From: Hirsutella rhossiliensis
Taxonomy: Eukaryota > Ascomycota > Sordariomycetes > Hypocreales > Ophiocordycipitaceae
Assembly: GCF_020360975.1 (NCBI RefSeq)
Contig: NW_025408673.1
Span: 806,001-870,000, forward strand
Length of the DNA: 64,000 nt
Direction of reading: 5' to 3'
Made by a program: the position numbers and the translations under genes. The notes beneath the pieces are model-generated. The model ran no database searches. It was not told where the DNA came from and was given only the letters and a program-made list of their open reading frames with translations. Positions 3,001-41,115 of the stretch are shown in pieces; position 1 is the stretch's first letter; the number at the start of each line of letters is the position of its first letter.

Positions 3001-4170
3001 AAGGTTAAAATTACCTCTAAATCCTTAGACGTTTATATAGGGGTCGGAGCCCTAAAAAGGTCTATAAGGTCGATATTTAGGTCTATATTTTCTTACAAAG
3101 CTATATTTAAGACCTTATTACTATCGTCCGAATCGGACTCTAGCTCTATAATTCGAGCCTTCCTTCTTTTATTAGTAGTAGAAACACTACTAAAAAGGGA
3201 TTTCTTCCTAGAAGAAGAAGATAAAGAAGAATATTTTCTCTTCTTAGAAATTCGAGTCCTATTATCCTTCTTTCCTTTATTTAAAACCTAATAAGTAGGA
3301 GCCTTATTTAGGTATAATTTATAGCAATTTACTATAAAATGCCCTGGTTTTTTGCATTCCTTATAATAAGGAGTATCTATAGAATTTCTATAGGATTTCT
3401 AAGGCTTCCTTTATATTAAGAAGGCTTTCTCTAAAGATTTATCTATATCCTCTATTTTTCTAGCTTCGTCTAAAAGACTAGCTATTAGGGATTCGAGGGT
3501 AAACGCCGTAGAATTATACCTAAGGCTCTGCGTAATATTTATAATATAGCTTCTAAATTCCTTATTAAGGCAATTAAGAATCTATACTATAAGGATAACT
3601 TCTAGAATTTCTATATTATAGGATTTTAAATCCTCGTAGATTTCTTTTACCTTATAAAGGTATTTCTCTAAATTAAAGCCTAAGGGACTAAGATTAAAGA
3701 GCTACTTTATAAGTAAATAATTTAACGAGAAACTCGACGGATTATATAGCTTTATCAGCTTATCTTAAGTAGCTTTAGTATTTATTAAATGCTTAATTTA
3801 TATTAAAGGGCTATCTTCGACTCGAAGAAAAATCTAGGATAAAGCTTCTATAGTCTTTATATAATTTTCTTACTCTAAGGTAGCGATAAGCTTTTCCTTA
3901 GTAAGGATAGCTCTTATCCTCGTAGTCTAAAGAGTATAATTTAAATTTCCCTTAAGTCTAGAGAATTTATATTCTTTTTATCTACCTATTTTATATAAAT
4001 TCGGTATTATTTCGTTTATAGGGATCGAGAAGTCTAGGCGGGAGTTTAAGAGCGTAGGAAGGTAGAAAAAGTCGTTAGGGGGATTTTCGAAAGGAATTTT
4101 AATCGGGTATTTCGATAAGGAATTTCAAAGGTATAAGTTAATTTCCTAGCTTAAAAGGAGTAAGCTAGGC
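1..4170 (-). mobile_element. RIP-degraded Ty1/copia retrotransposon (gag-pol relic)
   Basis: AT-rich DNA with no open frame, but ordered retrotransposon motifs survive on the minus strand. From high to low coordinate they are: a Gag zinc knuckle (3324-3365), a protease active-site region (about 2811-2873), the integrase region with an NGRIERINR-like motif (about 1931-2000) and the reverse transcriptase box YIDDFL (596-613). Integrase before reverse transcriptase is the copia (Pseudoviridae) order. The first knuckle cysteine is now Tyr, and the protease D-S/T-G triad reads N-T-R; both are G-to-A changes on the coding strand, as RIP produces. CA and TG dinucleotides are visibly rare. The element cannot encode working proteins. 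The promoter-distal end lies at or beyond the left window edge, and I could not place its LTRs. Confidence 0.8.
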
Positions 4171-10477: not shown

Positions 10478-13400
10478 ATGGAGGCGGCAGGACTTGCTAT
10501 CGGCGCCGTAGGCCTTATAAGCCTCTTCAACTCATGTCTCGATGCCCTCGATAGAATCGACTCTTTCCGGGAGTTCGGAAGGGAGACACAATACCTCCAG
10601 AATCAACTTGACAGCGCGAGGCTTCGCTTGCGTCAATGGGGTGACGCAGTTGGGTTGGAACGAGGAAAATTGTCCAAATGTCACCATGACCTTCTTGACG
10701 ACTCGGAAACATTTGCACTGATCCAGGAAACTCTGATCATCATTGAGCAAGAGTGCTTCGAGACTGAGGAACCCCAAGGTAAAGATCATGATTTGAAATT
10801 TTGCAAGCACGAGGATGACTATAAAGGCCGATACCGTCAAGCCCATAATCCATCATTTAGGCGAAAACTGGGCTGGTCACTCCGGCGCAAGGAGAAGCGA
10901 ACTGGCCAGATTCAGCGCGTCAGGTCCCTTGTGCAGAACTTGTACGATTTGATACCCCCCGAACATTCGAGCCCTGCGCGCTCGCGTGTCGAGCAGTGTG
11001 ATCAAGGTGAGCATCACGCTCGAAAGTCTGTGCTCCCTTTGACGAGATTCACACATCCAGACAACACTACTAGCAGGGCGATTTCCCTTGCCCAAGTGCG
11101 AGAGAATATTATCAAGATCGAAGCAGACTTGAAAGGCATGTACAGTCACGCTATAAAGGGCTGCCTAGAAAAGCATAGGGGTGTATGCTGGAACATGCTA
11201 ACAGCTGTGCGTACGAAGTTGAGAATGCGAGAGAGGCCAACAAGTGGTTGCTGGGAAAATACATTCCCAATGAACTCTACGAGAGCTGTAGCAGAGTGAG
11301 GCTGAACGGCACATGCGATTGGATACTGGAGCAACCTGCGTTTGTTAATTGGACTTCTCCCCATTTCCAATGGGCTGCCTGCAAGTGGCTGTGGATCAAC
11401 GGGCCTCCGGGATTTGGGAAGACTATTCTTTGCAGCAGGGTAACAGAGCATCTCTCGTCTCGCCTCGACACGCCTGTCGCCCACTTCTTCTTTTCGTCCG
11501 ACTTTGAGAGCTGCGAGGACCCCTTCGTCGCGATACGATCATGGATATCCCAGGCCATTTTCCACCCAGCCGCGGCGGCGCTGGCTCAACGCAGCCAGGC
11601 TTCCCAGTTTCACCAGCCCGTGGCAACCCAAAGGGCGATTGTCGAACTTCTGAGACAGATCGTCCAGGCCATTCCGCACTACACATTCGTGTTGGACGGG
11701 TTGGATGAGTGCACTTTTTGGAGCCGTGATCAAGGTCTTTTACCTAGGAACTCTGCAGCAGACTTGCTCACTGCCATTGATGAAGCATTAAGGGGAACAG
11801 AAACTCGCGTTATAGTGTGCAGTCGGGACGTGCCGGAGCTTCGACGATGTTTGGCCGGCTTAAACGCCTCCGAGTACAGACTAACGCCCGACGACGTTCG
11901 CTCAGATACCGCGGCCTACGCTCGGAGCCTCGTCGACGAGAGGCTGCCCAACAAAGAGCCAGAGCTCAGGAGAGCAATTTCGGATAGGATGTCTAAACGC
12001 TGCGAAGGGCAATTCCTCTGGCTCAAGCTACAGGGAAAAGACTTGCGAGGGGGCAAGAGTAAGCGCAAGCTCATCGAAGCTATTGACCAAGCCCCAACGG
12101 GACTTGAGCGACTATACGATAAACAATGGAGCAAGGTGGAAGCATACCAGGCCGAGGACCGCGACAGAGTCATTTCTCTGTTACGTTGGGCCGCATTTGC
12201 TCTACGCCCTCTGACAGTGTGCGAAATTACCGAAGCCGTGCTCATCCGACTTGACCGGCAAGATCCATGGATAGATAACCTGCCGGACAGTATTGATGAG
12301 GAGTACATACGGACTGAGATTGTCGAACTCTGCGCGTCGCTGCTCGAGATTCGAGACACGCCTTTTCGGACAGATCACATCGGGCGACGAACTGTGCATC
12401 TGACCCATTTCTCGGTCAAGGAATACCTCGTCAATCGCATGCAGGCGCGCGGAATCGCCCTGGAAGGAAACCAGCGCTTGAATTCGACCTTTGAGGCGAA
12501 GCAAGTGGCAGAGCTCGCCAAAATGTGCCTCTACTATCTCCAGAACCCAGCGGTGTGGGGGGAAGACGACGCCGAGCGAGAAGGAAGCCCAAGCATTGGA
12601 GCGTTCCGCAGCTACGCGGCCGGCTCCTGGTACCAGCATGCCTTAGCATGCGGAACAGGAGACTCCGAGCTGACAGAGGCTATCATCAGACTGTTTGATG
12701 CAAATAGCACGGTGTGGGATTCATGGCGGAGATGGTACGACTTCTATCACGGGGAGAGCCAGGAGAACGAAGAAAGCGACGAAGACGCTGCTGTCGATTT
12801 CAGCCCTGTGTATTATGCCTCGCACCTGGGCTTGGAAGGAATAGTCGAGTTGCTAGTACGAAACCAAAACCGCAGTCCAGACGGACAGTGTCCCTCAGGA
12901 CAGACGGCGCTGGCGGCGGCTGCGTATAACAGGCATCTCGGGGTGGTTCGATTCCTTCTCGACAATGGTGCCGAAATTAACGCCCTGGACGCACAAGGCA
13001 GGTCAGCCCTGTTTGCGGCCTGTCGAGGCGGAAGCGCGCAGATCTTGAGACTGCTCCTGGAAAGGGGGGCAGATGTGACGGTGGCAGCCAATGACGGGTG
13101 GTCGCCGCTCATGACTGCTTGTAATCATGGAAAGGCCAACCTGGTCGAGATGCTCCTCGAGAAGGGAGCCGACGCATCGGCCACCGATGATTGCGGGTGC
13201 ACGCCAATCACGATTGCCCTTGAGAAGCAAAAAGTCGACATTCATATTGTCGAGATGATCTTAGATCAGGGAGTCGATGTGACAGCGGCAGGTGATGACG
13301 GCTGGACGCCATTGTCATTCGCCTTACAAAGAGGAAACGCTGAAGTTGTTAAAATGATGCTTGATCGAGGGGCTGACTTGAGGAGCGTGGAGCTCGGGGT

Positions 13401-14397
13401 GTCAACGCCTCTCTTCATGCCCTCGGTATGGGGGAACAGTGAGCTTGCTGGATTACTTGTCGAAAGAGGGGGGGATGTTATGGCCAGGGACAGCGCGGGA
13501 CGCACGCCGTTACATCTTGTTTCGTGCCTGGGCGCCATGGAAGTTACCGAGATGCTGCTCAACAACGGGGCGGATGTTGTGGCCAGTGACGACAATGGAT
13601 GGACACCACTACACTACGCGTCTTACCATGGCAACTTAGGATCCGCTAACACGTTGGTTCAACTTGGGGCGGACCTGATGGCACGGAGCAAACGCGGAGT
13701 GACGCCGCTTCATTTCGCCTCTTCTTCTGGAAACCTGGATCTTGCCCAGATGCTTGTTGAAAAGGGAGCGAGCATCGCAGCCGGCGACCGTTCTGGATCC
13801 ACGCCACTACATGAAGCATCCAGACACGGGCGAACAAAGCTCGTCGAGTGGCTCCTGGAGAGCCCGCAAGCCCAGATCAACGGCCGCGACAACCACGGCC
13901 GTACAGCTCTGTTCCATGCCGCTCGATCAGGATGGGTTGGAATGGTGCGATTGTTGGCTGAAAGAGATGCCACAGGGCTGAACATTGCGGACCAGCACGG
14001 GACGACCCCGCTTTCTGCTGCAGCGAGGAACGGACGGGTCGAAGTCGTGAGGCTCTTGCTCGTTTCGTGGAAGCTTGACACGCACCTCTTGGACGGCTTT
14101 GGCTACTCCCTGGCCTGGTGGGCGTCCAGAAGCGGCAACGAGCGCATAGTTCGGCTCGTCAATCAGGAGGCATTGGACGACCACGATGATCCCGCACTGG
14201 GTGGAAACCAAAGCCCGAATGTTGGCATCATGGACTGGTGCAGGATCTGCACGATGGACATGCCGGAACCCAGGGCGCTGTGCTACGAGTGCGCAGTATG
14301 CGACGGGGGTGGCTTTCGGGTTTGCTTGGGTTGCTTTGAGAGCGGTAGGACATGCCAAGATTCATCGCACCAGCTGATGAAGGCGTTGTCTTATTAG
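10478..14397 (+). CDS. HeLo-NACHT-ankyrin-ZZ NLR (STAND) protein
   Basis: The predicted product is about 1284 aa, from exons 10478-11139 and 11205-14397; the 65-bp intron is inferred because it restores phase between two overlapping frames. The first ~200 residues resemble the HeLo (prion-inhibition/HET-S type) membrane-active cell-death domain, with the AAGLAIGAVGLISLFNSC start. A NACHT NTPase follows: Walker A GPPGFGKT, Walker B FVLDGLDEC, then a winged-helix-like segment (LLRWAAFALRPL). About 13-14 ankyrin repeats cover roughly 12,790-14,170. The C-terminus is a Cys-rich ZZ-like module (WCRIC, CYECAVC, CLGCF, final HQL). By family knowledge this is an intracellular NLR: ankyrins sense, NACHT oligomerises, HeLo executes. 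A real frameshift instead of an intron cannot be excluded. Confidence 0.85.
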
Positions 14398-18829: not shown

Positions 18830-19023
18830 TGTGACGGCCTAGCACCGTCACACCCCCTTTGCATACATGACCCACATGTTGCTGAGCCAACGGCCCACAC
18901 GTACGGAAGGCATATTTAGGGAGAGGACACCCAGTTGTATTGTTCTGTTCTCCTTTCTCTTCTTCAGAGCAGAATCTTCGTAATAGAGTCCACAGCCTTC
19001 TGGCTCAGTCCGTGACCGTCACA
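18830..19023 (+). repeat. 5' LTR of the gypsy element
   Basis: 194 bp, bounded by the inverted ends TGTGACGG/CCGTCACA. It contains CATATTTAGGGAG, a plausible TATA-like core. It is identical to the 3' LTR except for one additional C near its start. Confidence 0.95.
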
Positions 19024-19087
19024 CTATTCTGCTCTCTACCACGCCATCGCTGCCGAGCGATTCATAAGAACGCCACGACTTTACCCC

Positions 19088-20445
19088 ATGCCAAGACTGC
19101 GCTCGGCCGGCCCACTTGAACAGGACACGGCCCTCCATAGATCGCAGCTCCCACGACCCGTCTTACCAAGCATCGAAGATCAAGACCAAGACCAAGACCA
19201 AGACCAAGACCAAGACCAAGACCAAGACCAAGACCAAGACCAAGATCAAGATCAATACCAAGACCAAGACCAAGACCAAGACCAAGACCAAGATCAAGAC
19301 CGAGATCAAGACCAAAGAAACAGTTCAGGGACCATCGAATCGCACATAACCATCCAGGAAGGACAGGGACCTAAAATGGCTGACAGAACCAATCAGGAGG
19401 GCAGCAGCGGCTTGTTCACCGAATTGTCTCCCGAGCAGAGACAGCAATTAACCGACCACATCAGCCGAGAAGTGGCCCGTTTGGTCGCCCAAGTACGAGT
19501 GACCGAGCCAAGAGACAGCCAATATGGTGAAGATGAAGTCAGCACACCAGGCCAACGGGAAGGAACAGCCTTTGACGACCGCGAAGAATTCCGGCCGTCA
19601 GGATATGCGGCCCTTTTAGCCTTCCGGAGATATGAGTCGATGGATGGCACCAACCCAAACTATAGAGAGGACGGAAACGTCGGGAGAGAAACCCACCATG
19701 TTCTCCGGCGAAGGACTCCTCGTTTGAAAGCTGGATTAAGCAAGTAGAGGGCAAGTTCGAGGAGGACAACGATACTTTCGCCTCTGAGAAGACGCGGATC
19801 AACTTCGTGATTACGCGTCTCGAGGGCACCGCGTATAAGACCGTAGAAGGACGCCACCACTCGCTGACTCGGCCTTTCACAACATTGGCCGAACTAATCC
19901 AGGTCCTCCAGACAGCGCACACAAACCCAAACAAAGGCGCCGACGCCCGCGCCCAGCTGCGTGTCTGCAAATACGATTGGAAGAAGGACTTCAATATTTT
20001 CTTGGGAATTCAACTCCATGTACGAGGCGGCGGGGTACCAACCTTCAATGCAGAAACAGACCCTGTGGGACTCTCTTCCTGCTCCGGTCAACCAAGCGGT
20101 GGTCGAGAGGGTCTACGATACGAAAGTGCGCTACGAGGACTTCTGTGAGTCAGCACAGCACCAGGTGTTCGTGGCCCGCCACAACTTTTCCGAAGCGCAA
20201 AAGAAGCGCAACCACTCTAGTAGTAGTGGTGCCCGAGGGGTTCGGAACAATGGCGGCAACCGTAACAATGCCCGTGGTCGCCACCGGGAACAAACTGGCA
20301 ACGAAGGGGCTAGCCGGGAAGCTGGAGGAACCGTATCTCCGAGGAAGAGAGGAACGTCGCCGCATCAATAACCTGTGCTACCGGTGCGGAGAATCTGGGC
20401 ATATCGCCCCATTCTGTCGCACCCGCAACAACAACACCCGGAAAG
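19088..20445 (+). pseudogene. gag of the gypsy element, frame-broken
   Basis: The ATG at 19088 opens a frame with a long Asp-Gln repeat. Capsid-like sequence (SWIKQVEGKFEEDN, then QTLWDSLP and VYDTKVRYEDF) continues in other frames, with changes near 19,690, 20,005 and 20,310. A CX2CX4HX4C zinc knuckle (CYRCGESGHIAPFC) lies near 20,375-20,416. Gag packages the element RNA. One programmed shift is possible in such elements, but not this many, so the copy is non-functional as read. Confidence 0.8.
19181..19315 (+). repeat. (CAAGAC)n hexanucleotide array inside gag
   Basis: Roughly 22 units of CAAGAC with a few T variants encode a run of alternating Asp and Gln. The array sits near the Gag N-terminus and is likely to vary in length between copies. 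Confidence 0.9.
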
Positions 20446-20460
20446 GCAACCACGAAGACC

Positions 20461-23400
20461 GTGGAGAGCAGGCGGCCCCAGTCAGCGCAGCGACAACCAA
20501 CACCGCCACGGGCAAGGGCAAGGTTTGCGACCCAGACTCGAGCAGTTCGGAGTCGGAAACGAGTAGGCCAGGACAAAGTCTCGTTCCTGGCCGACTTGGT
20601 GTCTGTGATTGGAGCGGCGGATTTGGACAGACTCATAGGGGGCAAACAGCTGACAATCTCATCTCGCCTTAAATTGAACAACATGTCTATTCTCATTCGT
20701 GCCCTTGCAGACACCGGAGCGAGTATGTATCTCGCCATTAACCATAGGTTAGCGAGAAGAGCGGCCTCACAACTTGGGGCCCAGAGGAAGAGGCTTGATC
20801 AGCCAATTCACCTAAAGGATTACGCGGGAGTCAAGCACAAACACCCGATCAAGGAGGTTTTTATGGACTTCGAGATTGATGGACGACTCTAAAGAACTTA
20901 CCATTCTTGGTCGTCCGGATGGACTACGACATCATCATTGGCAGGAAATGGTTTGAACAACACAGGGTCGCCGTTGCGCCTGGACTCAGGAAACTTCTCT
21001 GGTCATCAGGACGGGAAGGCGCGACGAGATTATCGGGCCGAAGACGAGACAGTCTGGGGAAGCCGTCCTGGCGAAACCCGACGATTCCAACCACGCGAGT
21101 CGACGCCGATAATCCGCAGCAAATCCGCGCTGTTTCCGGTACGGAGCCTATCCAAGGAAGGGGAAAACGGACGACCAAGAGGACGTCATCCGTGACTGTG
21201 GTCGCCTTGCTACCGACCAGCGTCTGGCCGGCCAGAGAGCAATGCCGGCGGGCCGCCAACGTGTTCGGCACAAGCGCAAGCCCCAAGAATTCATGAACTA
21301 GCGTCTCCGGGAGCAAAGGGGACCCAAGTCGACCAGAGTCAATTGCCACAGGATGGACCACCCCACGACCACGACTCTGCAGGCCGACGGGGTGGTTGCC
21401 AGCTTTCTAAACCCGCAACAGGACCGGGAACTTCAGGGCTGCTGACAGCCCGCCTTAAGAAATTCAGAGTGCATCGCGCCTCGGAGAATTGGCTCGAAGA
21501 AGTGTTACGGTGGCTCACGTGAACCCGCAAACGCCAGAGATGCCTAAGGTACCACCGAAGGACACCCGCCCAGTTATCCCACTTCCACGGGGTGAGGATG
21601 ACGAGACGGTCCGCCTGATCAAAGAGAAACTCCCGACCCCGCTGGGCCATCTGGCTGGATTTTTCTCGAAGAAGGAGTCTAACCAGTTGCCTCCTCTCCG
21701 CGGCCCAGGGAGGGACATGAAGATCTACCTGACCAAGCCATTGCCAGAGCGTTCGAGAGGTGTCTACCGCAACCCACATCATCTAGACGAACTACTCCGA
21801 AAGACGATTCAAGATTACCTGGACAAGGGTTTCATCGAGAGCTGCTGGCCTGGATTTGCCTCACCAGCCTTCTTTGTGCCCAAGGGTGACATGGGCATGG
21901 ATTGGAGATTCGTGATCGACTACCGGGACCTCAACGACGCCAGTGCAAAGATGAAGTACCCCATGCCTCTGTTAGAAGATACCCTGGTAAAACTAGCAAG
22001 CGCCAAGTTTTTTACAAAAATCGACATCCGTCAAGCCTTCCATAGGTTGCGAATGGCCCTCGAAAGTATGGATCTGACGGCATTTCGGTGCCGGCTGGGA
22101 ACTTTCCGTTGGAAGGTGATGCCCTTTGGGCTGACGAACGGCCCAGCAATCTTTCAATGCTTTATCAACGACTGCCTGAGGATATCCTGGACATCTACTG
22201 CAGTTCGTACGCCGACGACATCCTGATCTATTCAGAGTCGGCCGAGGAAAACGTGCGCCAGACCGAGGAAGTCATTCGACGACTGGCAGCGGCAGGCCTA
22301 CAGGGCGACATCAAGAAGAGCTCCTTTTGCGTCACCGAGGTGGATTACCTCGGGCTGGTGATTAAGGCGGGAAGGTATCGCCCTTGACCTAAGAAGAAAC
22401 AGGCCATCCTTGAGTGGAGGCTGTCGGACCTAAAATCTACGAAAGCCATCCGATCTTTCCTCGGATTGGTTAACTTTGTCCGACGCTTCTCGAAAGAAGT
22501 AAGCGAGCTGGCGCACCCGCTCAACGAGCTCCTAAAAAGGGCAATCTTCAAGATCGGCAAGCAAGAGGAAGCGGCTTTGAAGCACTCAAGGAAGCCCTGG
22601 TCCGAGCTCCCGGAATGGGCTTCTGGAAGATAGGCGCCCTGACTCGGATAGAGACTGATGCGTCAAAGCATTCGGTAGGCGCCACCGCTTTACAACAACA
22701 GAACGACAACTCATGGAAGCCGGTGGCCTACTTCTCCAAGACCTTGTCGTCAACAGAGACGGTATGGCCTATCCAAGACCGAGAATTCCTCGCCATCATC
22801 CGCGCCCTAGAAGAGTGGAGGCCAGAGCTGGTTGGGGCCCTTTTGAAGTAGTAACGGACCATGAAGCTCTCAAGTACTTTGCGACAAAGCGGGTTTTATC
22901 ATCTCGACAAGCCCGTTGGGCACAGATTCTGTCGGAATTTGACTACAAGATGACATACCGACCCGGGAAGGAGAACATAATTGCAGATGCCCTGTCCCGG
23001 AAAAGCGAGAACTTCGAGACCGTCAGAGCCAGAGACCTGGATTCCCGCACCATGGAACTGGTCCCGAACGATCGGGTACCCGCAGAAGTTCTCGAGGAGA
23101 CACATGTCGAAGCTGCTCCCCTAGACATCGCGGCAAATTCTGAGGACCGCGGCCCAGCAGTACCTGGGGAGGCACCAGCCGGAGTGTTCCTTGTGGAGCT
23201 GATTGTCCGGGAAAATGAGAAACAGATTCCCAAGGAGGACCGGCGGAAGGGAGATCGTATCTGGGTGCCGGAGTACTCGTCAGAAGGGCTCGCACTGCGA
23301 ACTGCCTTAATCCGGGAAGTCCACGAACCCAAATCAAGGGGTCATCCGGGAAGAACAAGATGAAGGCGATGCTGCGGCCGTTCTATTACTGGCCACGTAT

Positions 23401-24706
23401 GGATGAGGATCTCGCGCGCTACGCACGCAATTGCCAGGCATGCCGTAGGAACAAGGTGTGGAAAGATAAGTCACCTGGATTGCTCCATTCGTTGCCCGTC
23501 CCAGAGGAACCTTGGCATACCGTGCTGGTGGACGGAAAGGACATGCCGAATGATCGAAATGGATTCGACTACGTTTGGACGTTCATCTGCAAGCTGAGCA
23601 AGCTGATTCTCACGATTCCGGGGAAAAAGACAGACACCGCCGAAAGACTGGCCAAGCGATATTACCGCCGCGTGTTTGGTCACCTCGGTCTACCGAAGAT
23701 TTGGCTCTCGGACAACGGACCACAGTTCATTTCGAAATTCATGGCCAAGGTCAACGAGATGACGGGAACAGAGCACAAATTCGGCAGTGCCTACCATGCG
23801 CAGACTCAAGGAGGCGTGGAGATTACCAACCAGTATCTTGACCAACGCTTGACGTTTTACGTGTCGTATTTTCAAGACGATTGGAGTGAGCATCTGGCGG
23901 CGTTAGACTTCGCGCATAACTCCACGCCGCACGACTCAACAGGCATGACTCGATCGAGGCCTCCCAAGGGCGAGCACCCCACGCGGCTTTCGTTCATATA
24001 GCGACCGACAAGCAGGTCGGGGATTGGACCGACGCCCAAAAGGCAGCCAAGGACTTTGTGAATCGAGCCAAGAAAGTTTGTTCGCTGGCAAAAAGGAACG
24101 TGGAAGCGGCTCAAAGGCGCCAGGAACGATCAGCCAATTTGAAGAGAAGAGTGCCCGATTTTGATGTCGGTGACTGGGTGTTTGTTTCGAAAAGGGGCTG
24201 GTCAACTGACAGGCCAACAACGCGGCTAGATTCTAAGAACGCGGGTCCGTTCAGAATCGTGGCAAAAAGGGGTCACTCATTCGAGCTGGACCTACCCAAA
24301 GGCATGAGGGTGGCAAAGGTGCTGCATGCCGACCGGTTGAGAAGGGCTGCGCGAGACCCGCTGCCGGGACAGCAGGTGGAAGCTCCGCCGGCCGAGATGA
24401 TTAACGGCGAGCCAGAGTACGAGGTGGCGAAAATATTGTCGTCAAGGATCTCAAAAATTACAGTACCGAGCCGAGTGGGCAGGACAGGACCCTGACGAGC
24501 TATACTACGACGCTGAAGGGTTCAAGAATGGTGCCGCAGCTCTCAGGCGGTTCCACGACGAATATCCCGAGGCACCTGGACCGCCTGTACGATTGGCAGA
24601 ATGGCTGCTAGCCGCTGCGGAAGACAGGTGGGCAGAGAGTCACAACGATGACAACAAGGCTGTCGGCCGTGGGCATGAGCGACGGCGACTGCGACGACAC
24701 TCGTGA
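20461..24706 (+). pseudogene. pol of the gypsy element (PR-RT-RH-IN-chromodomain), frame-broken
   Basis: Protease ALADTGASMY lies near 20,705. Reverse transcriptase runs from about 21,540 to 22,390, with FVIDYRDLN and SYADDILIYS in different frames and a TGA at 22,385. RNase H follows (TDASKHSVGA near 22,650; ADALSRK near 22,988). The integrase has CQACRRNK, then SDNGPQF and GGVEITNQ. A chromodomain-like tail (YRAEWAGQ...DELYYDAEGF) ends at 24,706. Frame changes fall near 20,550, 20,890, 22,170, 22,850, 23,357, 24,000 and 24,455. Conserved residues are otherwise well kept, and the breaks are indels rather than C-to-T changes. Confidence 0.85.
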
Positions 24707-28447: not shown

Positions 28448-29821
28448 ATGACTACGACCCGCAACCAGGGCGACGACATCAGGCACGAGGAAGAGGAGTG
28501 GCTGAAGCCGCCGGTAGGTGCCTTACCCGTGTGTTATACTGTGCTACTCTGTTGCAGCCTTGTCTGGCTGTAGCACTCGGCCGATTGGAAAGGGTTCCGT
28601 TGACTTTGGGAATAAAGGCCAGTTCGCTGGGGCTACATCAGGTTTACCCCAATCCAAACACACGAAGCAACCCAGACATTGAGTAAGGCGTTCTGCGTTT
28701 CTAATTATGTCCAACCCCCGGCCATCACCCTTCCCCCTACATGTACAGCACTAGAATGTCGCGCCTGGACCCTTCCAGCCCGCCTCATCCATACATCTCT
28801 AGTTCTCTACAGCGCTACGATAGTGACGCGAGCGCCCGCAGTGTTGTCTTTGTGCACGGGTTAGGCGGCGACTCCATCTCGACTTGGACCAAGGACAAGT
28901 CGCTCTGGATCCGCGCGCTGCTCCCCAAGTCACCCCTGTACCAGAATGCCCGCATTCTGAGCTACGGCTACGACGCCCGCGCCTTCGTCCGACCCTTTGC
29001 TCACTCGGTCAATGGCCGCGTCTTCACCTTCGCCGAGGCCCTGCTAGGCGACCTCCGGGACAAGCGCGTGACGGCAGCGGCGCGTGCCCGTCCCCTGATC
29101 CTCATGGGTCACTCGCTTGGGGGCATCGTCATCAAGTCGGCTCTTTTGCAGGCGTCTGCGCGCGAGGCATTGTACGGAGACCTCCTCCGGGCCACCAAGG
29201 CCATTGTGTTCTTCGGCACGCCCCATCAAGGCGCGGGCACGGCCGAGTGGGCGTCATTCCTCGGTGGTCTAGGCCAGGCCGTAGGGCTGCGTTCGACTGA
29301 GGTCGTTGGCGAGCTGAAGCGTTGGTCCCACACGCTCGTGGAGCAGACTACGCTCTTCGCCGACCTCTGGGAACGGTTCGACATCACGACCTTTTACGAG
29401 ACCATGAAGACCAACGGCGTCATGGTAGGACATATCCACCAGTGGGGACCGGCTGAGTTGGAAAAAGAAACAGGGGCTAACTTGACCCTTCGCCCAGATC
29501 GTCCCGGATGGCGCGGCTAGGGTCGGGCAACGGAACGAGCAGGCTCGCAGACTTGTGGCGGACCACATCCAGGTTTGCAAGTTTTCTGAGAACGACGCCA
29601 ACTGGACGACGGTGCGTGGCCGGCTTGACGCCATTGTCGAGGGGATCATGGAGGCGGAGGCGATACAAATGCATGTTGTCCTACCTGACGCCCCTCTCCA
29701 GGAGCCGGCCCGTGCCCAGCTCCGCGGCAGCGAGGCCGACGAGTGGGAGGCGCGGGTGACGAAGCTCAAGCAGACGAATGAGTCGCGAGGCAGCCAATCA
29801 GGCAACGGTAGGAGCGGCTGA
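28448..29821 (+). CDS. Stand-alone alpha/beta hydrolase (DUF676/NLR-effector type)
   Basis: Exons are 28448-28513, 28558-28682, a third ending at 29424, and 29498-29821. The third exon starts at 28755 or 28842; both keep phase, and the second joins GLHQVYPNPN...DI directly to VVFVHGLGG, which reads more like the family. The product is about 365-395 aa. It has the oxyanion block FVHGLGG, the nucleophile elbow GHSLGGIVIKS with its serine intact, FFGTPHQG, and a C-terminal DHIQVCKF block that carries the likely catalytic His. This fold is common as an N-terminal domain of fungal NLRs but is separate here. It lies 552 bp upstream of an NLR with a related but serine-less domain and shares its last intron position. 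Substrate unknown; a lipid or ester is plausible. Confidence 0.85.
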
Positions 29822-30373
29822 CCAACTCGACTATCGCCAGAACTCAAGACTCGTGGCTCGAGACTCGAGGCGGTGGAGTCCTACATGGGCCCGGGCGCTA
29901 GTAAAACCAGACCGCGGGCTATCGAGGGCCTCTCCAGCTGATTCGTGTCTTGGATCGTTGGTTACTCATTGGAGGTTTCACAATGTCGTGTTACTTTGGC
30001 CGCCGTAAGGCGTACAGCCCCCAGGCTGTAAGGCGTACAGTCCCCAGGCCGTGAGGCCCACACTACGTATGTATGTGTTTACAGGGAAATGCAGTGGCCC
30101 GTGGGGTTTCTCAGTTCAATGTAACGGTTTGCATAGGGGGAGGGGGCGGGTGGCCTGACGGGACCTCTATCATGGCGAGATTTGCAAGTAAACCAACGTA
30201 CCGCATGTGACTAGAGGGCTGCCTTACGGCACCTAAAGGGATGCCATGCGAGCCTGCTGCCTTGAGGCTGAAAGCGGCTGCCTTATGTTTCTCGTCCCGA
30301 GGTGGGTGGACTCTCACTCGAGAAGCCATGGCGCTTCTTCGCTCGCGAGACCACGATACGCATTGCCATAGTC
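29822..30373. other. Short intergenic region between hydrolase and NLR
   Basis: It contains a small direct repeat near 30,005-30,050 (two copies of TAAGGCGTACAG...CCCCAGGC). No gene is seen. An open frame continues upstream of the NLR ATG at 30374 to 30302, but it starts with GTG, not ATG. Confidence 0.5.
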
Positions 30374-33300
30374 ATGGAAGGCCAACTTGGACTTCAGATT
30401 CTCTGGCCAGCAGGCCCAGAGCCAATGGACGAGCACAGGCACGAGTATGTCAGCCCAAGTCCCATCTGCTTCTACTCTGCTGACCCGCATTTTCACAGCA
30501 TTGTGCTCGTCCACGACCTCGGCAGCGGCCCTGTTTGCGACTGGCGACACGAAAACGGGACGCTCTGGCCGCTTCTTCTGGGCAAAGACTTGGGCAATGC
30601 TCGCGTCTTTTCGTTTGGCTACAACCACGAGGAAGCGCGTATCCGGCCGCAGGAATATGGAAGCGGTGGCACCGTCTTCAACTTTGGGGAGACCCTCTGC
30701 AGTGATTTGAAGGACAAGAGGACGTCAAACAAGGTCAATATCCCTCGCTCTGCTCTCGGGCCCTAGCGGTTAGACGCTCTCATCTAACCAGGACCAGGCA
30801 CAACCGCCCATCACCTTCATCGGACACGGTACAGGGGGCATCATAATCAAGAGCGTAAGTCGCCTGCCTGCTGACCCGCGCCCAGGTAGAAGCCGGGGGA
30901 CATGATGCCTTTGAATTCTGACCCTTATTTCCCCATCCCTAGGCGCTTCGCTACTCCCAGGCCAGAAAGTACCTGTACGGATCCATCCTGCGCAAGACGG
31001 TGCATGTGGTTTTCCTAGACACGCCGCATATGGGCCTTGAAGACACCAGTAAACACGGCCCGACAGAAAGCGTGAGCGGGTTGGGCATCGGGCAGCTGAG
31101 ACTCTGGTCGACGGTGCTCAACGATCTCCAAATACCATTTTCCGATATGGCCGCCCGTTTCAACATAACGACGGCACAGGCGTATATCAGAGACGGCGAT
31201 AACCCTGTATGTGTCCGCAAAAGACTACAAACAGAGAAGAGAGAAGACGAGATGGATCATTGGCTAACTAGCTGCTGGCAGCCTGGAGAATCCGGCCGGC
31301 TTTACCTTGCGAACGAGCAGCCCCTAATGCTCCATGGCAAAACGCATCAGACCATCTGCAAATTCGCAGGGGAAGACGACCATAACTACCGCCGACTGCT
31401 GGAGCGCATTCGCCACGGTTTTTCGAATCTAACCACAGACCCGGACGATATTCAGAAAATCCGGGCGTGGATCGGAGCCGACGTTGGCTCCCAGTCGGAG
31501 GCCCGGTCCGGGTCAATGGACTGGAACAGTTGGGATTTCGAAGACTGCAGGACCAAACATCTCAAGGGGACATGCAAGTGGCTGATCAGCGACCCATCAC
31601 CCTTCGCTAACTGGGCAAGCAATGACGCCTCCAACCCCATTCTGTGGGTGACGGCACCCGTGGGACGAGGCAAGTCGGTTCTCAGCTGCTTTGCCAATGA
31701 TTGGCTATCCAAGATGGCGCAAAGACCTGCAACACCTTACCTGATGATCAGCTATAATACGCAACGCACACGCCACCAGATGGCCTCAAGTCTTGCCTCG
31801 CAGCTCCTCGAGCATATTGTGAAATCCTCGGTCGGCCAGGGCTTCCCAGGTGGCGTCAACGCCGAGGCTCTTACCCTTGTCTGCCTGGATTCCAAGAATG
31901 TTGAAAACATGCACGATCTCATCCGGCTGCTCGTCTCACAGTGCACGGCCGTCTATTTCTTCGTTGATGGGCTCAATGAGCTACCGTTTGACCGGGAGCA
32001 CGAGTACATTTGTAAAGATCTCTTTTCCACGATTGGTTTCCTCGCCGACCTGGCCAAAAAGAGTGAGACAACCCGCGTCCGGCTCTGGTGCAGCAGCCAA
32101 CGATCTAAAGTCGTCGTTCGGGGGATGGAAGCACTGGCCCCCAGAGAACTGGCCATGGACAAACGCTTGGTATCCAAGGATGTCCAGCGGTTCCTCCGCG
32201 GCGCCGAGGAACTTGTGAAATCTGTCTCGGACGACCCCGGAGAGATGCGATTCGCCGAGTTGAATGGTAAAGCCGGATCCAACTTTCGTTGGGCGGCTCT
32301 GATGAAGAACAGCCTCCAGGGCGCCCACACGCCAAAGCAGCGGGAGAAGATCCTCGAGAAAGGCCTGCCAAAGTCGCTAACCGATATGTACTCGGAGCGA
32401 CTAAAGGAGCTAAAGGCAATGGACATCGAGGATCAGGCCAACGAGGGGTCTCCCTTGTCCATGTTGGTCCTCATTTGCTTCACTTCTAGAAGATCGCTGA
32501 GACTTGACCGCAGGCATATCCTATCTCTCATGACGTTTGCGAAACGGCCACTACGAGTAGCCGAAGTCGAGGAAGCTGTCTCCATTATTGACAGCTCCGT
32601 GAGCCACGCAGGTTGCGACGATCTAAGTGACAGGAACCGCAAGCTCAGGGAGGATATCGTGCACCGATGCGTGCCTCTGGTCGATTTCGTGCCCGACGCC
32701 AGGGGCGGCCACCTCCTGCCATCACACGGCTCCGTCGTCGAGTTCCTACGAAAGTTATTGGTGGCGAGCTCGGATGGAGCGGATGACGATGGACAGAGCC
32801 TAGCATCCTTACCGGCGTCGACAAAGGCCCTCGTAGACGCTGCCGTTATGGCCGACGCTTGTCTCAAGTATCTCTTCCAGAAGCGCTACGCCCGGATGCT
32901 GCATAGACGGTCTAATGACGAGTTCATGCCGAGTCTGATCTCCGACATCGAGGACCACCATTTCCTGCGATATGCCGCCAAGAACTGGTATCGTCACGCC
33001 GACCAAGCGGGCGAGCGGAAGTGCGACGACGTCATGAAGTTCCTCGCCTCGCCCCAGTTTCTCACGACGATCCAGGTGCAGAGTCTCTTCATTGTTGGCC
33101 ATTTCATCAACCGCATCAACTACTTGGGGCAGCAGGTTATGAAGCAGAACTTGCCCGAGTGGTTCCGCACATGCGACGACGGGCGTTCCATGGCGCGAAG
33201 CTACGAGACTTTCTCCGCCGAGTGGAGTCGGTTCCTTCAGTTGGGCATCACGACCTATAAGCAAGCCGAGATTAGACGGTGCTTCTGGGGTGCCTTGGGG

Positions 33301-35950
33301 CCCGGAAACTTTCTCCAAAAGCACGGCGTCGGTATTGAAAGCCACCGCAGCTTCCTGCTCACTGACGACGACGGCGAGCAGAGCCAAGACGCCGACTGCT
33401 CTTATTACGAGATGCTCAGTGACGACGGCAAGCGACTATCCGTCTGGAAAGTCCCTTTTTGCAGGTACGTGGACGAAGATCATATGCAGACATACATGCA
33501 CACACACATATGTCGATATCTTGATCCCTTATATAAACACATATACCTTGTTCCTGTCTTGATCTCATACACACACAATATCTTGATCCCATATATACAC
33601 GCACGTATACATATTGACATCCTGATTCCATACACACACGTATATTCACATTTGATCCGCACAACCCTGCAACCAACTGAACTTGTCCTCCAGCACAACA
33701 GATGAAGCCCAGGGCGAAGCTACGGCGACCCTGGTACACCAACACTGGTTTGTCGACGGCATCAACCCTCCCTTCCGCTACGGTGCCCCGGAAACCCTCC
33801 GGCTTGACATAAATGCCGTCAAGTGGCCACTCTACGACTCGCAGGCCTTCCCCCTTGTTCCTTCGGCAAATTGTCCGATGCGTGTGACCCCCGTTGCCGA
33901 CAGCAAGTACGGCACTGCAGTTCGCGTCGGGTCGGTCAGGTTTCGTCGCCAGCCCGGTCGCGTATGGAAAAGCGACGGGCCGACTTCATACTGGGAGGAC
34001 ATCGTGGTCGAGCGCGAGTACACGGTCCATTCACGTCGTAAGCTCGTCAAGACACGAGGGAAGGAGAAGGAAGGGGGGGCGGCAGGGCGGCTGGCGCAAC
34101 GAGGGAGATTGTCCCATGAGGGCCGGCGTACAAGTGCGAAGCAGATGGACTCGACCCACGATGACGAGCTGGAGCATGAAGCCTCAGAACTGGACGACGA
34201 TGAGCTCGAGAGACTGGGTTGGGGCGCCGTTTCTTCGGCAGACGAACAATGTGATTCCGAATCCTCGGACGGTGCTGAATCGGACGATGGCGACAAGGAA
34301 AGTGATGGTTTGTCGGCTTCATCAGAGCAGGAAGACACTGACGAAATGGTGGATTCTGAAGCTGAAGGCTACATGGCCTTCTCGAGCTGGAAAGCCAGAT
34401 TGATGCCCGACAATGTCGATTTCGACGTGCAAGACGGTGACTTGTCATCGAGCTCGGCAGTCTTGTCGGTTGGCGATTCTCGACATGACGACGCCGACGC
34501 AGACGACGAGGGCGGCGGGGACGAAACAGCGTCCGGAACATCAGATAGTGAGGTCGACAAGGAGCGCCTCAGGCGCTTCCAGCCTCGCATTTATTCGCCG
34601 TCGAGGCCGCAAAGATGGAGCTGTGGTCACTGCGGGAAATCCGGCGGTTCCTCCGACAACAATCCAAAGCTCGAGGTTTTTTACCAATGCCGCCGACAAG
34701 AATGCTACAAGATGGCATCCTCTGATGTCTGCCTGGCCTGCTTCGCCCTCGGCGCCTGGTGCCGGGACGAGAAGCACCAGTTACGCAAGATGACGGTCCT
34801 CCACGGCCGTGTGCGCCGCCGGGAGCTCGTGTCCCGCCACGACTCGAGGCCCGGGCTTGACGTCGTGGTCCGGCAGCGCAGCGGCAATGGCCATGAGCAG
34901 GCCGTCTTTCGCTTCACGAGTAGGACACGGGCGATGCTGTACGGCTCGCCGCCCGTGGTCCATGCCACCTCGCCGCTGCTCGTCTACGCCATCGACGGCG
35001 TGCGCTTCCTCTTTGCCAGCCTCGACGACAACTCGTACTTTGAACACCGTGTACCGCTGGGCTCGGCTGAGACGGGTGACGGAGGCGTCGACGCGTGTAT
35101 CCCCGTGGCGGCTCAGATGGCCTTCTCGCGCTGCGGCGGCTTTCTGCACGTCGCGAGGGTGACGGCCCGCCGGGAGCCAGGCTCACGCACCGCCGTCAAC
35201 CTCTTCGTCCAGGTCTTGACGGTGCAACTCGCCGCCAAGAGGCCGTGCTCGCGACTCCCGCGCACCCTGGCTCGTCGCCGCGGCGTCGCGCTGGGCAGGT
35301 GGGCGTCGGTGGCCGCCATCACCTGTCTCCCCTTTGCCATGACGTGGATCGACGGCGATGTGTACGTGTCCCTGAGCATGGATGAGCTGCGCGTTTTCAA
35401 GATTCCTCTGGATAGGGGCGAGGAGCGGTCGAGCAGCGGCGGCGGCGACGGTAAGAAGGGAGCCGGCGACGGCGAAGCTGCCGGGGGTGGCGAGACGGTA
35501 GACTGCCGAGCTGCTGTTTCTGAAGGTGGTGAAGCCGGCAAAAGGAACGAGACGGCAGACTGCCTGGCTGCTGTTCCCGACGATGGTGAAGCTGCCGGGG
35601 GGGGCGAGACGGCAGACTGCCGAGCTTCCGTTCCCGACGACGACGGCATCCAGGCGCTCGCCAGCCGCGTCTTTCTTCCCTGCTCGGCACGGCGGCGGCC
35701 CGTCTACTTCTTCCCCGAGACGGGAGCGGCCGCGGCCAAGATCGTCTTGGGCGCGCGGCGCACCGAGCAGCAGGCCGAGCCGCCGGCCGTGATATACCTG
35801 CGGGCCGACGACGCCAGAGCGTGGGTGGCGGCCGCCGACGCCGTCGTGTCCTTCGAAGACGCGCCGCTGCGGAAGTGGGACCAGCTCGAGGAATTTGACG
35901 CCGAGGACGATTGCGAGCTGATCCTGTCGTTGCACGACTTTCAAAGATAA
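30374..35950 (+). CDS. NLR with pseudo-hydrolase N-terminus, NACHT-like NTPase, ZZ-type zinc finger and C-terminal domain
   Basis: Exons 30374-30733, 30792-30854, 30943-31206, 31282-33464 and 33694-35950 give about 1708 aa with consistent phases. The N-terminus is an alpha/beta hydrolase domain, but the elbow is GHGTGG (30822-30839) instead of GHSxGG, so the nucleophilic Ser is missing while THQTICKF keeps the late His. The NTPase has Walker A APVGRGKS (first Gly replaced by Ala) and Walker B FFVDGLNEL (usual DGLDE). After a long helical region comes an acidic Ser/Asp/Glu-rich linker (about 34,140-34,560), a ZZ-like finger (CGHC, CRRQEC, CLACF, then HQL, about 34,620-34,790) and a ~400-residue C-terminal domain that I recognise only as recurring in fungal NLRs. 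The 75-bp intron 31207-31281 is in frame and free of stops. Confidence 0.85.
33465..33693 (+). other. Unusual 229-bp intron with TACACACA/TTGATCCCATA repeats
   Basis: GT at 33465 and CAG at 33691-33693 join exons in phase 2. The intron is two to four times longer than most others here and consists of imperfect tandem copies of a 'cttgatccc atatacacac' unit. The frame stays open through it to 33705, which would give a truncated NLR if it were retained. Confidence 0.7.
35471..35641 (+). repeat. 57-bp minisatellite, three copies, coding
   Basis: Three imperfect 57-bp units in the NLR C-terminal domain encode 19-residue repeats of the type GEAAGGGETxDCRAAVPDD. They look like a recently expanded loop insertion. 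Confidence 0.85.
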
Positions 35951-37465: not shown

Positions 37466-39123
37466 TCATTACCAGCTCGTGTATGCTGCGACGCTGGAAA
37501 TTCCTTGCCAGAGTTGAGTGACGCATCAGCCATGGTTGCTCGTGTTTGGCATGTCGTGTAGACTTCTCGATATCAAGCTGCTCGACTTTGCCCATGTTTC
37601 AACTTTCTGCCATCTCCGCCACAGGTAAGTTTCTCAAAATATCATCTCTACCAGCAGCCACTCCCGCCGCTCTCTGAACTAAAGCGTGACGACCTCTAAG
37701 CTCGAGACGGCCACTGGCTTGGCGAACTGCGAGAGTAAAGAATACGGAATAACCTCTTCGGCATTTCCCAGGAGCCAATATCCCGCCATGTCGCCGGTCT
37801 GTCTGAATGGGCAGGCGTATTGCTACTCAGGGATACCCCTTACGCATCCCTTCTTGTGAGCTTTCCAGTTCGCCTTTTGGTGTGCTTTGCCACAGTATGC
37901 CACTGCATGGCATCTGCTGCAACTCTTCACCCCCACCGTCTTCAGGCATATTTTGCATAGCTAGACCTCCATGCAGCTACTGCTTCATCCTTAAACCTCG
38001 GCAACCATCTCGTCCTCCTGCCTCATTTCTTGCATCACCAGCCGCATTCACAGCCTAATCTTGATCTCGCACTCCCTCTTTCCACGTCAAGGGGTCACCC
38101 AGACGACGATGCGTGGTTGCCCTCCATACAACTTGGATATTGGGCTCTGTAGGATGTCCGTAGCGAACCGGCTGCAGCATTCACTGAAAGCCCTCGACGC
38201 GCTCCGACAAGATGACGCATGCTCCCTCATGAGAACTATCATGGACTGAACAAATCGTTCATCGTATTCACCATCCCGCCCGGCACAATGGGCCTCTGTG
38301 ACGAGGCCGCGGGAAATGATGTGGTTGTGTACAAATCGCGTGGCGCCGAAGTGGCATATAATCTCGACGCGGACTGTTGAGGTTTCCGTAGTTCAGTTTC
38401 CGGGCTGTATGTGTGAAATAATGCGTAGGCTGAATGAGAAGAAGGGGCAAGAGACCATGGTTCAAGACCGAATTTCACGCGTCTGACTTTATCTGCTCTT
38501 CCTCTCGCCCCTTCTCACCTTCCCAATGCTTTTTATCGGCACGTTGTGTTGCATGGCATGACTGCGTGTGATCCCGGACCTTCGGCAACGAAGAAATAAT
38601 AAAGATGAAATAGCGGCGTTTTACGGGCCTAAATCTGGCAATAAGACGGGGACCAGGGGCGCTAGGAAAAATCACGATGCATCGGATCTGGCCTATTAGT
38701 AGAGCCTTATTTAATATAGCTTTAACTCTATTAGTCAGACCAAGAAATAAAGATGATAATATGGCGGCGTTTTATAGGCTTAAAATCGGCAATACGACGG
38801 GGACTAGGGGCGCTAGGACGAGAGCTTGTCAGTGTGGCAGCTTAAAAATCACGACGCATCAGATCTGGCCTATGTAGCAGAGCTTTGTTTGCAGCTTCGG
38901 CTCTGTTTTTTTTAGTGATACAAAGAAACGATCAAGGTTAACGCGGCGGAGTTTCATAGTCTTGAATGTGATCACATGCCAGAGGGAGCCAAGCGCCACC
39001 AATTCTCAATGCGGGACCTGATGGATGTCTGTAGCGGTTTCCCAAAGTCCTCGGCAGTGCTTTGATATATAACAAGGCTGCTGCCTATTGCTATTCGGGC
39101 AATAGATCGGGCCGTTCCCAGCG
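37466..39123. other. Gene-free region with degenerate repeats
   Basis: No supported gene. 37,466-38,580 is ordinary sequence with only short frames. 38,590-38,970 carries the tandem repeat listed separately. The end is the presumed promoter or an unseen first exon of the FunK1 gene; a stop at 39103 closes the kinase frame upstream. Confidence 0.5.
38590..38970 (+). repeat. Imperfect tandem repeat, two full copies and a partial third
   Basis: Units begin near 38,590, 38,742 and 38,922 with AAGAAAT(A)A and share GGCGGCGTTTTA, GACGGGGAC and GGGGCGCTAGGA. Unit 2 carries an additional internal stretch. Several differences are C/T or G/A, as RIP would leave. Confidence 0.7.
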
Positions 39124-39267
39124 TTGGTAAAAGTGAACGCCACCTATCTGAATTTTGCCCATAATTCTGGCTTGTTGCCTTTCGAACCTAACTTCACCCT
39201 CCCTGACCCTGTGTTGCCGGAGATCTTCGAACTAGCGAGTACAACCGGTGCTGGCACGACAGTTGAT

Positions 39268-41115
39268 ATGTCCTTCCAAGAACAGTTTCGAATCGAAGAC
39301 ACGAATGCCGCCAGGGATTCCCACACGATTCAGAGCACGGTCAAGGATCTGCTCAGTGATTTCGACGGGCACATCTACGTTGATATTGAAGGACTCGCTG
39401 CGACTTTCCTCGAGGCTCGGCCTTGGTCAGGCCCTGCAATTGCAGTAGCTAGGGAAATTACCGGGCCACACGGACCGGCAATCGGATCATGCGAGGCTTT
39501 TGCTGCCTGGCTCGAGCATTTACAGACTGTCACTCGACCTTACAATGTGCCAGAAGAAACAGCCACTCACTTCACGTGGCTCGAAACGACGTCACCGAAC
39601 TCATCCCTCATCCTCTCAAATTGTGTTCATGGGAAGGATGGCTCCAGATGGTCGAATGTCCTTGCACTTGGCGAGATGAGCATCGACGGGCCCTATAGGA
39701 CGAGGTTTCACAATCTGTGTATTCACGCCAACGAAGTGTTCACCCATCAAACTGCCCGCGAGCTCCTTCATGGTTTCTATCTTTGTGGAGGCGTGTTGGA
39801 AATATGGGTGTTCGACCGGGCGGGGATATACGGAAGTAAGGCCGTGGACGTCAGAAAGACACCTGGCCTACTGACTCAAACTCTTGCCAGCTATCTACTC
39901 ATGGACAGCGCCTCGCTTGGTGTGGGCGATTTGATAAAACATGACCATGTGGGGAACTATATTGAGTGCGAGCTTGACGGTCCGACTGGGGCGAGCCGGC
40001 TGTATCTTGGCGAGCCGACGATTTTCGAACGAATCAGCAAGACCATTGTCGGCGACGGGCTTACTTGCTATCGCGCCAAGGCACAAGGTTCTGATTACTG
40101 GAAGTACGCAGTCAAGGTCAAATGGTCTGAGTCTGACGACAAGTCTGAGGCTGGATTGCTTAAGCTGGCCATGGAGAAGCGTGTCTGGGGGGTTATCCGA
40201 CTTATTCAACACCGGATTGTATGCGGTACGAGCGACTGGCGTTGTGGTTTGATCCTTGGTGAGCCTCGGAAATTCTCATCCTGGGCAGGCGCGGCCAGAC
40301 AGGACAGTCCTGGATCGGCCATTGACCATACGGTTGAACTTTCGAGGAACGAGGAGGCCCACGCCGGCGATGCGCCACACGCAACTATCGATGACAGGAT
40401 CCTTAACTGTGTCGTCATAACGCCGCTTGGCGAGTCGCTCCATCACTGCAAGTCAGTTCCCGGGCTTCTTTATGCGTTACGAGATGCAATAAAGGGCCAT
40501 CGTTCGCTGTATCAAGACGGGGGGATTCTTCACCGGGACATATGCCCCGGGAATATTATCATTCCATCGCGTGGCGCGGGCTCTCGTGACAGCCATGAAG
40601 CCAAAGGTGTGTTAATTGACTTGGATGTTGCAAAGCTGGTAACGGCGCCATCGAGACAATTCGAAAGCGTCGGGACACCACATTTCCAGGCGATCGGTGT
40701 CCTGCAGGCCTACCTACCCGACAACCCTCATACCTATTGGCATGACCTAGAGGCTTTCTTTTACACATTCCTCTTCCTTGCGATATGCAAACGACCAGTT
40801 CCTGCGGGTGAGAACCAACTGCAGCTGCCAGCAACAAGCGCACTACAGATGTGGATTCAAGGTCGGCCCGTGGACAAGGCAAACCGCAAGACAAAGGACA
40901 TGCATGCCGAAAACTTCCGCGTCATAATGGCTGAGTTTACACCCGATTTCAAGGGACTCTTTGAATTGGCGGAGAAACTCAGGTGTCCATTGTTCCCCAT
41001 GAGAGACGGGAAGTTGTGGACAGGGACCGATCATACGACCCAAGGCACGGCAGCCCTATACGACGGGATGATCGAGGCTTTTGACATGGCGGCCAAATTC
41101 GCATGCTCGTTGTGA
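39268..41115 (+). CDS. FunK1-type fungal protein kinase
   Basis: The frame is open from 39106, but the first ATG is at 39268 (615 aa); the 48 codons before it may be a leader lost to an unseen upstream exon or a 5' truncation. VHGKDGSRWSNVLALGE and YLCGGVLEIWVFDRAG are hallmark blocks of FunK1 kinases. The catalytic loop HRDICPGN (from 40531) has its Asp and Asn, and IDLDVAK replaces the usual DFG with DLD, which is common in this family. GTPHFQAIGVL is the activation-segment end. No intron is needed. FunK1 kinases form large accessory families in ascomycetes and mushrooms; substrates are unknown. Confidence 0.85.
   Translation: MSFQEQFRIEDTNAARDSHTIQSTVKDLLSDFDGHIYVDIEGLAATFLEARPWSGPAIAVAREITGPHGPAIGSCEAFAAWLEHLQTVTRPYNVPEETATHFTWLETTSPNSSLILSNCVHGKDGSRWSNVLALGEMSIDGPYRTRFHNLCIHANEVFTHQTARELLHGFYLCGGVLEIWVFDRAGIYGSKAVDVRKTPGLLTQTLASYLLMDSASLGVGDLIKHDHVGNYIECELDGPTGASRLYLGEPTIFERISKTIVGDGLTCYRAKAQGSDYWKYAVKVKWSESDDKSEAGLLKLAMEKRVWGVIRLIQHRIVCGTSDWRCGLILGEPRKFSSWAGAARQDSPGSAIDHTVELSRNEEAHAGDAPHATIDDRILNCVVITPLGESLHHCKSVPGLLYALRDAIKGHRSLYQDGGILHRDICPGNIIIPSRGAGSRDSHEAKGVLIDLDVAKLVTAPSRQFESVGTPHFQAIGVLQAYLPDNPHTYWHDLEAFFYTFLFLAICKRPVPAGENQLQLPATSALQMWIQGRPVDKANRKTKDMHAENFRVIMAEFTPDFKGLFELAEKLRCPLFPMRDGKLWTGTDHTTQGTAALYDGMIEAFDMAAKFACSL

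Follow-up and report, generated by a model that had tools for sequence, protein, structure and literature searches.

Why would a receptor keep a broken copy of the enzyme encoded next door? The question is raised by two tandem genes of Hirsutella rhossiliensis, a nematode-parasitic fungus, within a 64,000-nucleotide stretch of its genome (called the window here, at its full length). Gene 1 encodes a free alpha/beta hydrolase; 552 bp downstream of its stop codon, on the same (+) strand, is the start codon of HRG_006830, which encodes a NOD-like receptor (NLR) whose N-terminal domain is a homologue of gene 1 with an apparently dead active site. We find that all relatives of this domain examined lack the same two catalytic residues, that the domain is nonetheless well conserved, and that hydrolase and NLR are linked in several other fungi. 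Our tentative answer, held with somewhat less than even confidence, is that the dead domain serves as an adaptor, docking and clustering the live enzyme upon activation of the NLR, and that the two genes form a conserved receptor/effector module.

The evidence begins with the active site. The initial annotation had set an intact GHSLGG in gene 1 against GHGTGG in the NLR and had noted that the region of the late His survives (DHIQVCKF versus THQTICKF). Both pairs of motifs are real and align with one another, and Gly113 of the NLR stands where the nucleophile Ser is expected. The acid is gone as well, Ala201 being aligned with Glu230 of gene 1, and the NLR copy reads HDLGS where gene 1 has HGLGG. 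We compared eight such dead domains, one from a distant relative and the others from the seven family NLRs with models that extend over the site: Ser and Glu are absent from all eight, whereas the late His is present in seven, P0087 alone having Arg instead. Because the losses are common to all eight, the alignments indicate that they are ancient, and this sharing, together with the strong conservation of the domain, rules out recent pseudogene decay. Nor does a neighbouring Thr seem to have rebuilt the active site, since that position varies (GHGTGG, GHGVGG, GHDVGG). P0107 and P0088 might have a displaced acid, as an Asp follows one residue further on in the former and a Glu two further on in the latter, but both also lack the nucleophile. 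Catalysis by some other residue in a GHGxGG domain is therefore unlikely, with nucleophile and acid both gone and the adjacent Thr variable.

Gene 1 and its relatives present the opposite picture. Across an alignment of 63 domains, the gene-1-family proteins have the Ser in 27/27, the Glu in 27/27 and the catalytic His in 25/27; given its fold and its Ser135, Glu230 and His261, gene 1 is apparently a working SesB-like serine hydrolase. The window NLR resembles the all-in-one SesB-like NLRs in having an alpha/beta hydrolase N-terminal to a nucleotide-binding domain (PMC4986451, PMC9815663; here and below, papers are cited for the portions of them that we covered). It is unlike them in its catalytic residues, which the ordinary domains mostly keep: of 12 compared, 11 have the Ser and 11 the Glu, each of the two columns showing a single gap.

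That the two window genes are duplicates, as had been proposed, is borne out by homology, introns and trees. BLASTP aligns them at 35% identity over 253 columns (E 4e-29), far beyond chance. Both are interrupted at the same alignment column by a phase-2 intron, which splits the Asp codon of D-[VI]-V-x-V-H. The second shared intron, which the initial annotation had noticed ahead of the block that leads up to the late His, is in phase 0 in both genes, with the two positions two columns apart. In the translated matches of nine other hydrolase-domain loci of the same genome, the phase-2 site was judged by eye to be unbroken in six (L017, L018, L021, L022, L023, L025); the matches of L019, L020 and L024 start at the site itself or a few residues from it, and they are uninformative there. 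The phase-0 site also looks broken in L017, so this intron is possibly older than the gene pair.

In a tree from which the two catalytic columns had been removed, the gene-1 family and the dead domains fall on one side of a branch with support of 97/95 (62 rows, without P0064); when the nine other own-genome domains are added, the joint clade has 100/99 (69 rows, without P0064, P0117 and P0035). The dead clade on its own has 100/99 and 100/100 in the two trees. Whether it is nested within the gene-1 family or sister to it is not separated by the data (p-AU, from the approximately unbiased test, 0.461). Ordinary SesB-like NLR domains group apart from the dead family in both trees, neither of which favours the view that the dead domain arose from one of them. 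The rows comprise matches of two query proteins plus own-genome loci, and further branches may be missing; the homolog sets were filtered by words and by length, and counts here and below are among the matches listed.

Own-genome searches, which give lower bounds, served as controls. Besides itself, the best match of the NLR N-terminal domain is gene 1 (42%, E 1.1e-27). At the nucleophile elbow, the nine other loci have Ser in seven (L017, L018, L019, L020, L021, L024, L025), Cys in two and Gly in none. The two with Cys (ASCLGG), L022 on C16 and L023 on C3, are near-identical, keep the acid and have a P-loop frame alongside.

What, then, is the dead domain kept for? Comparing five orthologs pairwise (P0082, which is the window NLR, P0083, P0084, P0086 and P0087; P0085 was left out), we found the dead domain more conserved than the NACHT domain in 8/10 pairs, for instance 51% versus 47% and 63% versus 55%. 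A domain so well kept without its catalytic residues most simply binds something. One can envision that it binds a small molecule: like the plant hormone receptors that have this fold, it would hold a ligand, here a lipid or an ester, in its dead pocket, with the NLR signaling alone. A structural model of the relative P0108 shows the hydrolase fold complete, and its structural neighbours include the receptors D14 and KAI2; however, these matches are not specific among many hydrolases, and such a role would leave the linkage to a live twin unexplained. We regard it as most improbable.

The linkage itself recurs. In Xylaria longipes (F4801DRAFT_528534 and F4801DRAFT_528531), Acephala macrosclerotiorum and Colletotrichum melonis, hydrolase and NLR are each on a contig of 826,769, 316,533 and 154,028 bases, respectively, so that, with the window, linkage is found in 4/9 named species with a family NLR. 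Because it was read from equal contig sizes without coordinates, this shows linkage and not adjacency; adjacency is likely in C. melonis, where the locus tags are consecutive (CMEL01_16554, CMEL01_16555). That these related fungi keep the genes linked suggests a two-part system of receptor and enzyme. The split system that the initial annotation had considered possible thus gains a recurring association of the two genes, with adjacency in relatives indicated so far in one species.

It could be argued that all this reflects neutral inheritance: tandem duplication and fusion, long ago, would have left the genes adjacent while the dead domain took on a role unrelated to gene 1. That linkage was seen in fewer than half of the named species would fit, as would the related NLR P0112 of Colletotrichum sojae, in which the same kind of C-terminal half is joined to a different N-terminal part, suggesting domain exchange. 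Small-scale gene order usually decays across orders, however, and the linked species span what we take to be four of them; this, with the strong conservation of the dead domain, makes neutral inheritance quite unlikely.

We return to the adaptor, which is preferred because of the Ser/Glu pattern, the joint clade, the linkage, the conservation, the P-loop (its GKS is invariant in 6/6 aligned relatives) and the precedent of sesB-type hydrolase genes, which adjoin NLR genes and act as separate effectors in proposed models (PMC3321046). We imagine that a hydrolase gene was duplicated, one copy remaining the free enzyme, gene 1, and the other becoming the N-terminal domain of an NLR, where the catalytic Ser and Glu would have disappeared early, the domain being kept for binding. 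A signal would be sensed by the C-terminal half of the NLR, and the NACHT switch would then drive oligomerization; the resulting ring of dead domains could dock the live sister enzyme through their common fold, and clustering would activate the enzyme or position it at a membrane. There it might cleave lipid or ester substrates, leading to a cell-death or confinement response.

Control might also run in the other direction, the resting NLR holding the live hydrolase inactive through its dead twin and freeing it upon activation. Such restraint draws on the same linkage and common fold and fits wording in the initial annotation, but members of the free enzyme family seem to exist where no family NLR partner is listed, and there the enzyme would be unrestrained; we consider it very unlikely.

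Several observations weigh against the adaptor itself. No same-contig hydrolase was seen among the matches listed, which are cluster representatives only, for Phialocephala subalpina, Xylaria digitata, Pestalotiopsis fici, Amniculicola lignicola and Colletotrichum sojae. Gene-1-family hydrolases occur in species without a family NLR among these matches, and the enzyme may therefore have another job. The dead domain is less conserved than NACHT in the two remaining ortholog pairs, P0082-P0087 and P0083-P0087. Finally, the dead-domain NLR of P. fici, P0086, which has no linked hydrolase among the matches listed, carries a HET domain (PF06985) within the same predicted protein, possibly another output or possibly a fusion of gene models.

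How does such a pair compare with known systems? Two layouts are described in fungi, the effector being either fused to the NLR or encoded by the next gene, with a short amyloid motif common to the two proteins (PMC3321046, PMC5485727), and N-terminal enzyme domains of fungal NLRs have been proposed to act as direct effectors (PMC4986451). The sesA/sesB/het-eN and HET-S/NWD2 clusters are similar to the pair described here in that an NLR-type gene adjoins one for an effector, of hydrolase type or another, and that the linkage is kept from species to species (PMC3321046, PMC5485727). Their NLR, in the portions of these papers covered, lacks an effector domain and shares the short amyloid motif with its neighbour, whereas the window NLR carries a dead homologue of its neighbour's whole domain. 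We saw no amyloid motif in place of that domain, only 23 residues preceding its core, although no dedicated amyloid-motif scan was made; in the P0108 model, residues 5-11 form a strand of the fold. The likeness to HET-S/NWD2 that had been drawn for this locus thus holds for gene organization and not for a separate amyloid-motif region.

A further feature of the free enzymes lies at their C termini. ESCRT-III (endosomal sorting complex required for transport III) proteins carry there an MIT-interacting motif (MIM1) with the consensus (D/E)xxLxxRLxxL(R/K) (PMC6862464), and the tails of the gene-1 family resemble it in C-terminal position and residue pattern (PMC6862464, PMC7240154). A relaxed pattern, [LMW]xxR[LMFV]xx[LI], occurs in the last 30 residues of 20/27 family proteins, against 0.17 expected by shuffling, and in 1/92 of the other proteins collected (P0028, which has 41% identity to gene 1 and is not on the tree). 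A narrower pattern occurs in the last 60 residues of 13/27, against 0.02 expected, and in 0/15 and 0/25 of other hydrolases. These patterns were written after the tails had been seen, and the figures are a guide rather than a prior test. The literal consensus, in contrast, is found in only 2/27, the window tail is degenerate, and the resemblance is not unique to MIM1, as other amphipathic helices look similar. Searches against PDB sequences gave no independent support for MIM1 identity, with no significant relevant match: for a first family tail, designed Bcl-2-family inhibitors and a ribosomal protein ranked above a CHMP1B MIM1 peptide, which came last of seven matches (E 0.85), and a second tail matched only a DNA-binding protein (E 3.2). 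One ESCRT-III locus of H. rhossiliensis ends DDDLQARLDSLRK, and its genome gives two MIT matches, one of which resembles Vps4 by eye; within the NLR itself, Pfam gave no MIT domain at E <= 1.

The tail bears on another explanation of the pair, that gene 1 is a cellular enzyme attacked by parasites or non-self factors, perhaps at ESCRT-III/Vps4 membranes reached through the MIM1-like tail, and that its dead duplicate in the NLR is bait, linkage ensuring that the two are inherited together. In its favour, the tail motif is found in free enzymes both with and without a listed NLR partner, and in the trees the dead domain falls with the free enzymes rather than with ordinary SesB-like NLR domains. 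Integrated decoys derived from a host kinase have been proposed in Sordariales NLRs (PMC12258605), and the window NLR is like them in that one of its domains has a homologue in another protein of the host, here gene 1. Those proposed kinase decoys, however, are C-terminal (PMC12258605), whereas here the domain occupies the effector position at the N terminus and its homologue is genomically linked; moreover, divergence would be expected under attack, yet the domain is strongly conserved. A decoy is unlikely on this balance, though the likeliest of the rivals to the adaptor.

A dead, conserved N-terminal domain linked to its live twin implies that the enzyme domain of an NLR can be kept for non-catalytic use, and so small a two-gene system makes the choice between pseudoenzyme adaptor and decoy directly testable. 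If the MIM1-like tail does bind Vps4 or another MIT protein, fungal NLRs would be tied to membrane repair. The combined proposal, a third route from an NLR to a separate effector through a conserved pseudoenzyme twin, with an ESCRT-III-like MIM1 tail joining NLR signaling to Vps4/ESCRT membrane repair, is unlikely in our estimate. In literature covering few subscription papers, and in the portions of it seen, we found no description of an NLR with a dead twin of a linked hydrolase in work on SesB-like, inactive or decoy-bearing fungal NLRs. Searches of the same scope for fungal NLR pseudoenzymes, for an MIT-interacting motif in the context of fungal NLRs and for MIM1 and ESCRT-III together with fungal esterases found nothing, and one for H. 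rhossiliensis NLRs found nothing relevant.

Table 1. Features of gene 1 and of the NLR gene HRG_006830, numbered from the first nucleotide of the window.
Feature	Position	Strand	Basis or remark
Gene 1, stand-alone alpha/beta hydrolase, 345 residues, 4 exons	28448..29821	+	Spliced exons identical, letter for letter, to deposited H. rhossiliensis protein P0001
Gene 1 exons	28448-28513, 28618-28682, 28842-29424, 29498-29821	+	
Gene 1 intron, phase 2, in Asp codon before first core strand	28683..28841	+	
Codon Ser135, predicted nucleophile (GHSLGG)	29113..29115	+	63-domain alignment
Codon Glu230, predicted acid (FYE)	29398..29400	+	63-domain alignment
Gene 1 intron, phase 0, before block leading to late His	29425..29497	+	
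Codon His261, predicted catalytic His (DHIQVCKF)	29564..29566	+	63-domain alignment
Degenerate MIM1-like stretch WEARVTKL, 17 residues from C terminus of gene 1	29744..29767	+	
NLR gene HRG_006830, 1688 residues, 6 exons	30374..35950	+	Spliced exons identical, letter for letter, to deposited H. rhossiliensis protein P0082
NLR exons	30374-30444, 30499-30733, 30798-30854, 30943-31206, 31282-33464, 33694-35950	+	
N-terminal dead hydrolase domain, about residues 1-262, introns inside	30374..31438	+	DUF676, BLASTP to gene 1, P0108 model
NLR intron, phase 2, counterpart of 28683-28841	30445..30498	+	Same alignment column
Codon Gly113 (GHGTGG), at expected nucleophile Ser	30828..30830	+	Not Ser in 8/8 dead domains
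Codon Ala201, aligned with Glu230 of gene 1	31180..31182	+	Not Glu in 8/8 dead domains
NLR intron, phase 0, counterpart of 29425-29497	31207..31281	+	
Codon His231 (THQTICKF), late His kept	31345..31347	+	His in 7/8 dead domains
NACHT-type nucleotide-binding domain (NPHP3_N)	31567..32097	+	62.8 bits, cut-off 24.8
P-loop APVGRGKS in NACHT	31654	+	
Last NLR exon, with an acidic stretch, a Cys cluster resembling a zinc finger near 34616 and a C-terminal part rich in strands	33694..35950	+	Cys cluster recognized by eye

For gene 1, queried as a 330-residue model with an alternative start, Pfam gives Abhydrolase_6 at 27.9 bits (cut-off 26.3) and DUF676 at 24.1 bits (cut-off 20.3); the NLR N-terminal domain matches DUF676, a known N-terminal type of fungal NLRs, at 21.4 bits (same cut-off). 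The only match of gene 1 among PDB sequences was a proteasome subunit (E 0.93), NCBIfam profiles gave weak matches far under their curated cut-offs, and PADLOC gave one weak profile (E 2.5e-6 for gene 1, 0.023 for P0108 and no match for P0082). The C-terminal half of the NLR has no Pfam match, and thus none to the ANK, TPR, WD40 or HEAT repeats of fungal NLRs, at E <= 1; its low-confidence model (mean pLDDT 54.5) has weak propeller-like structural matches. Elsewhere in the genome, a relative of the NLR at L046-L047 (C2, ~3365-3373 kb, minus strand) retains NACHT and C-terminal matches in pieces parted by unrelated open frames; judged by eye, an insertion seems to have split it.

The rest of the window includes a second NLR-type locus at 10478-14397 (+), where one frame encodes a HeLo domain (87 bits); NPHP3_N/NACHT and ankyrin repeats follow, along with a weak match to a ZZ finger. 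Judged by eye, open frames at ~19000-24500 (+) resemble gag, reverse transcriptase and integrase of a Ty3-type retrotransposon, and one at 39106-41115 (+) resembles a fungal protein kinase. Positions 1-8000 are AT-rich (GC 27-34%, versus ~51-67% from 10 kb on), presumably as in repeats degraded by repeat-induced point mutation.

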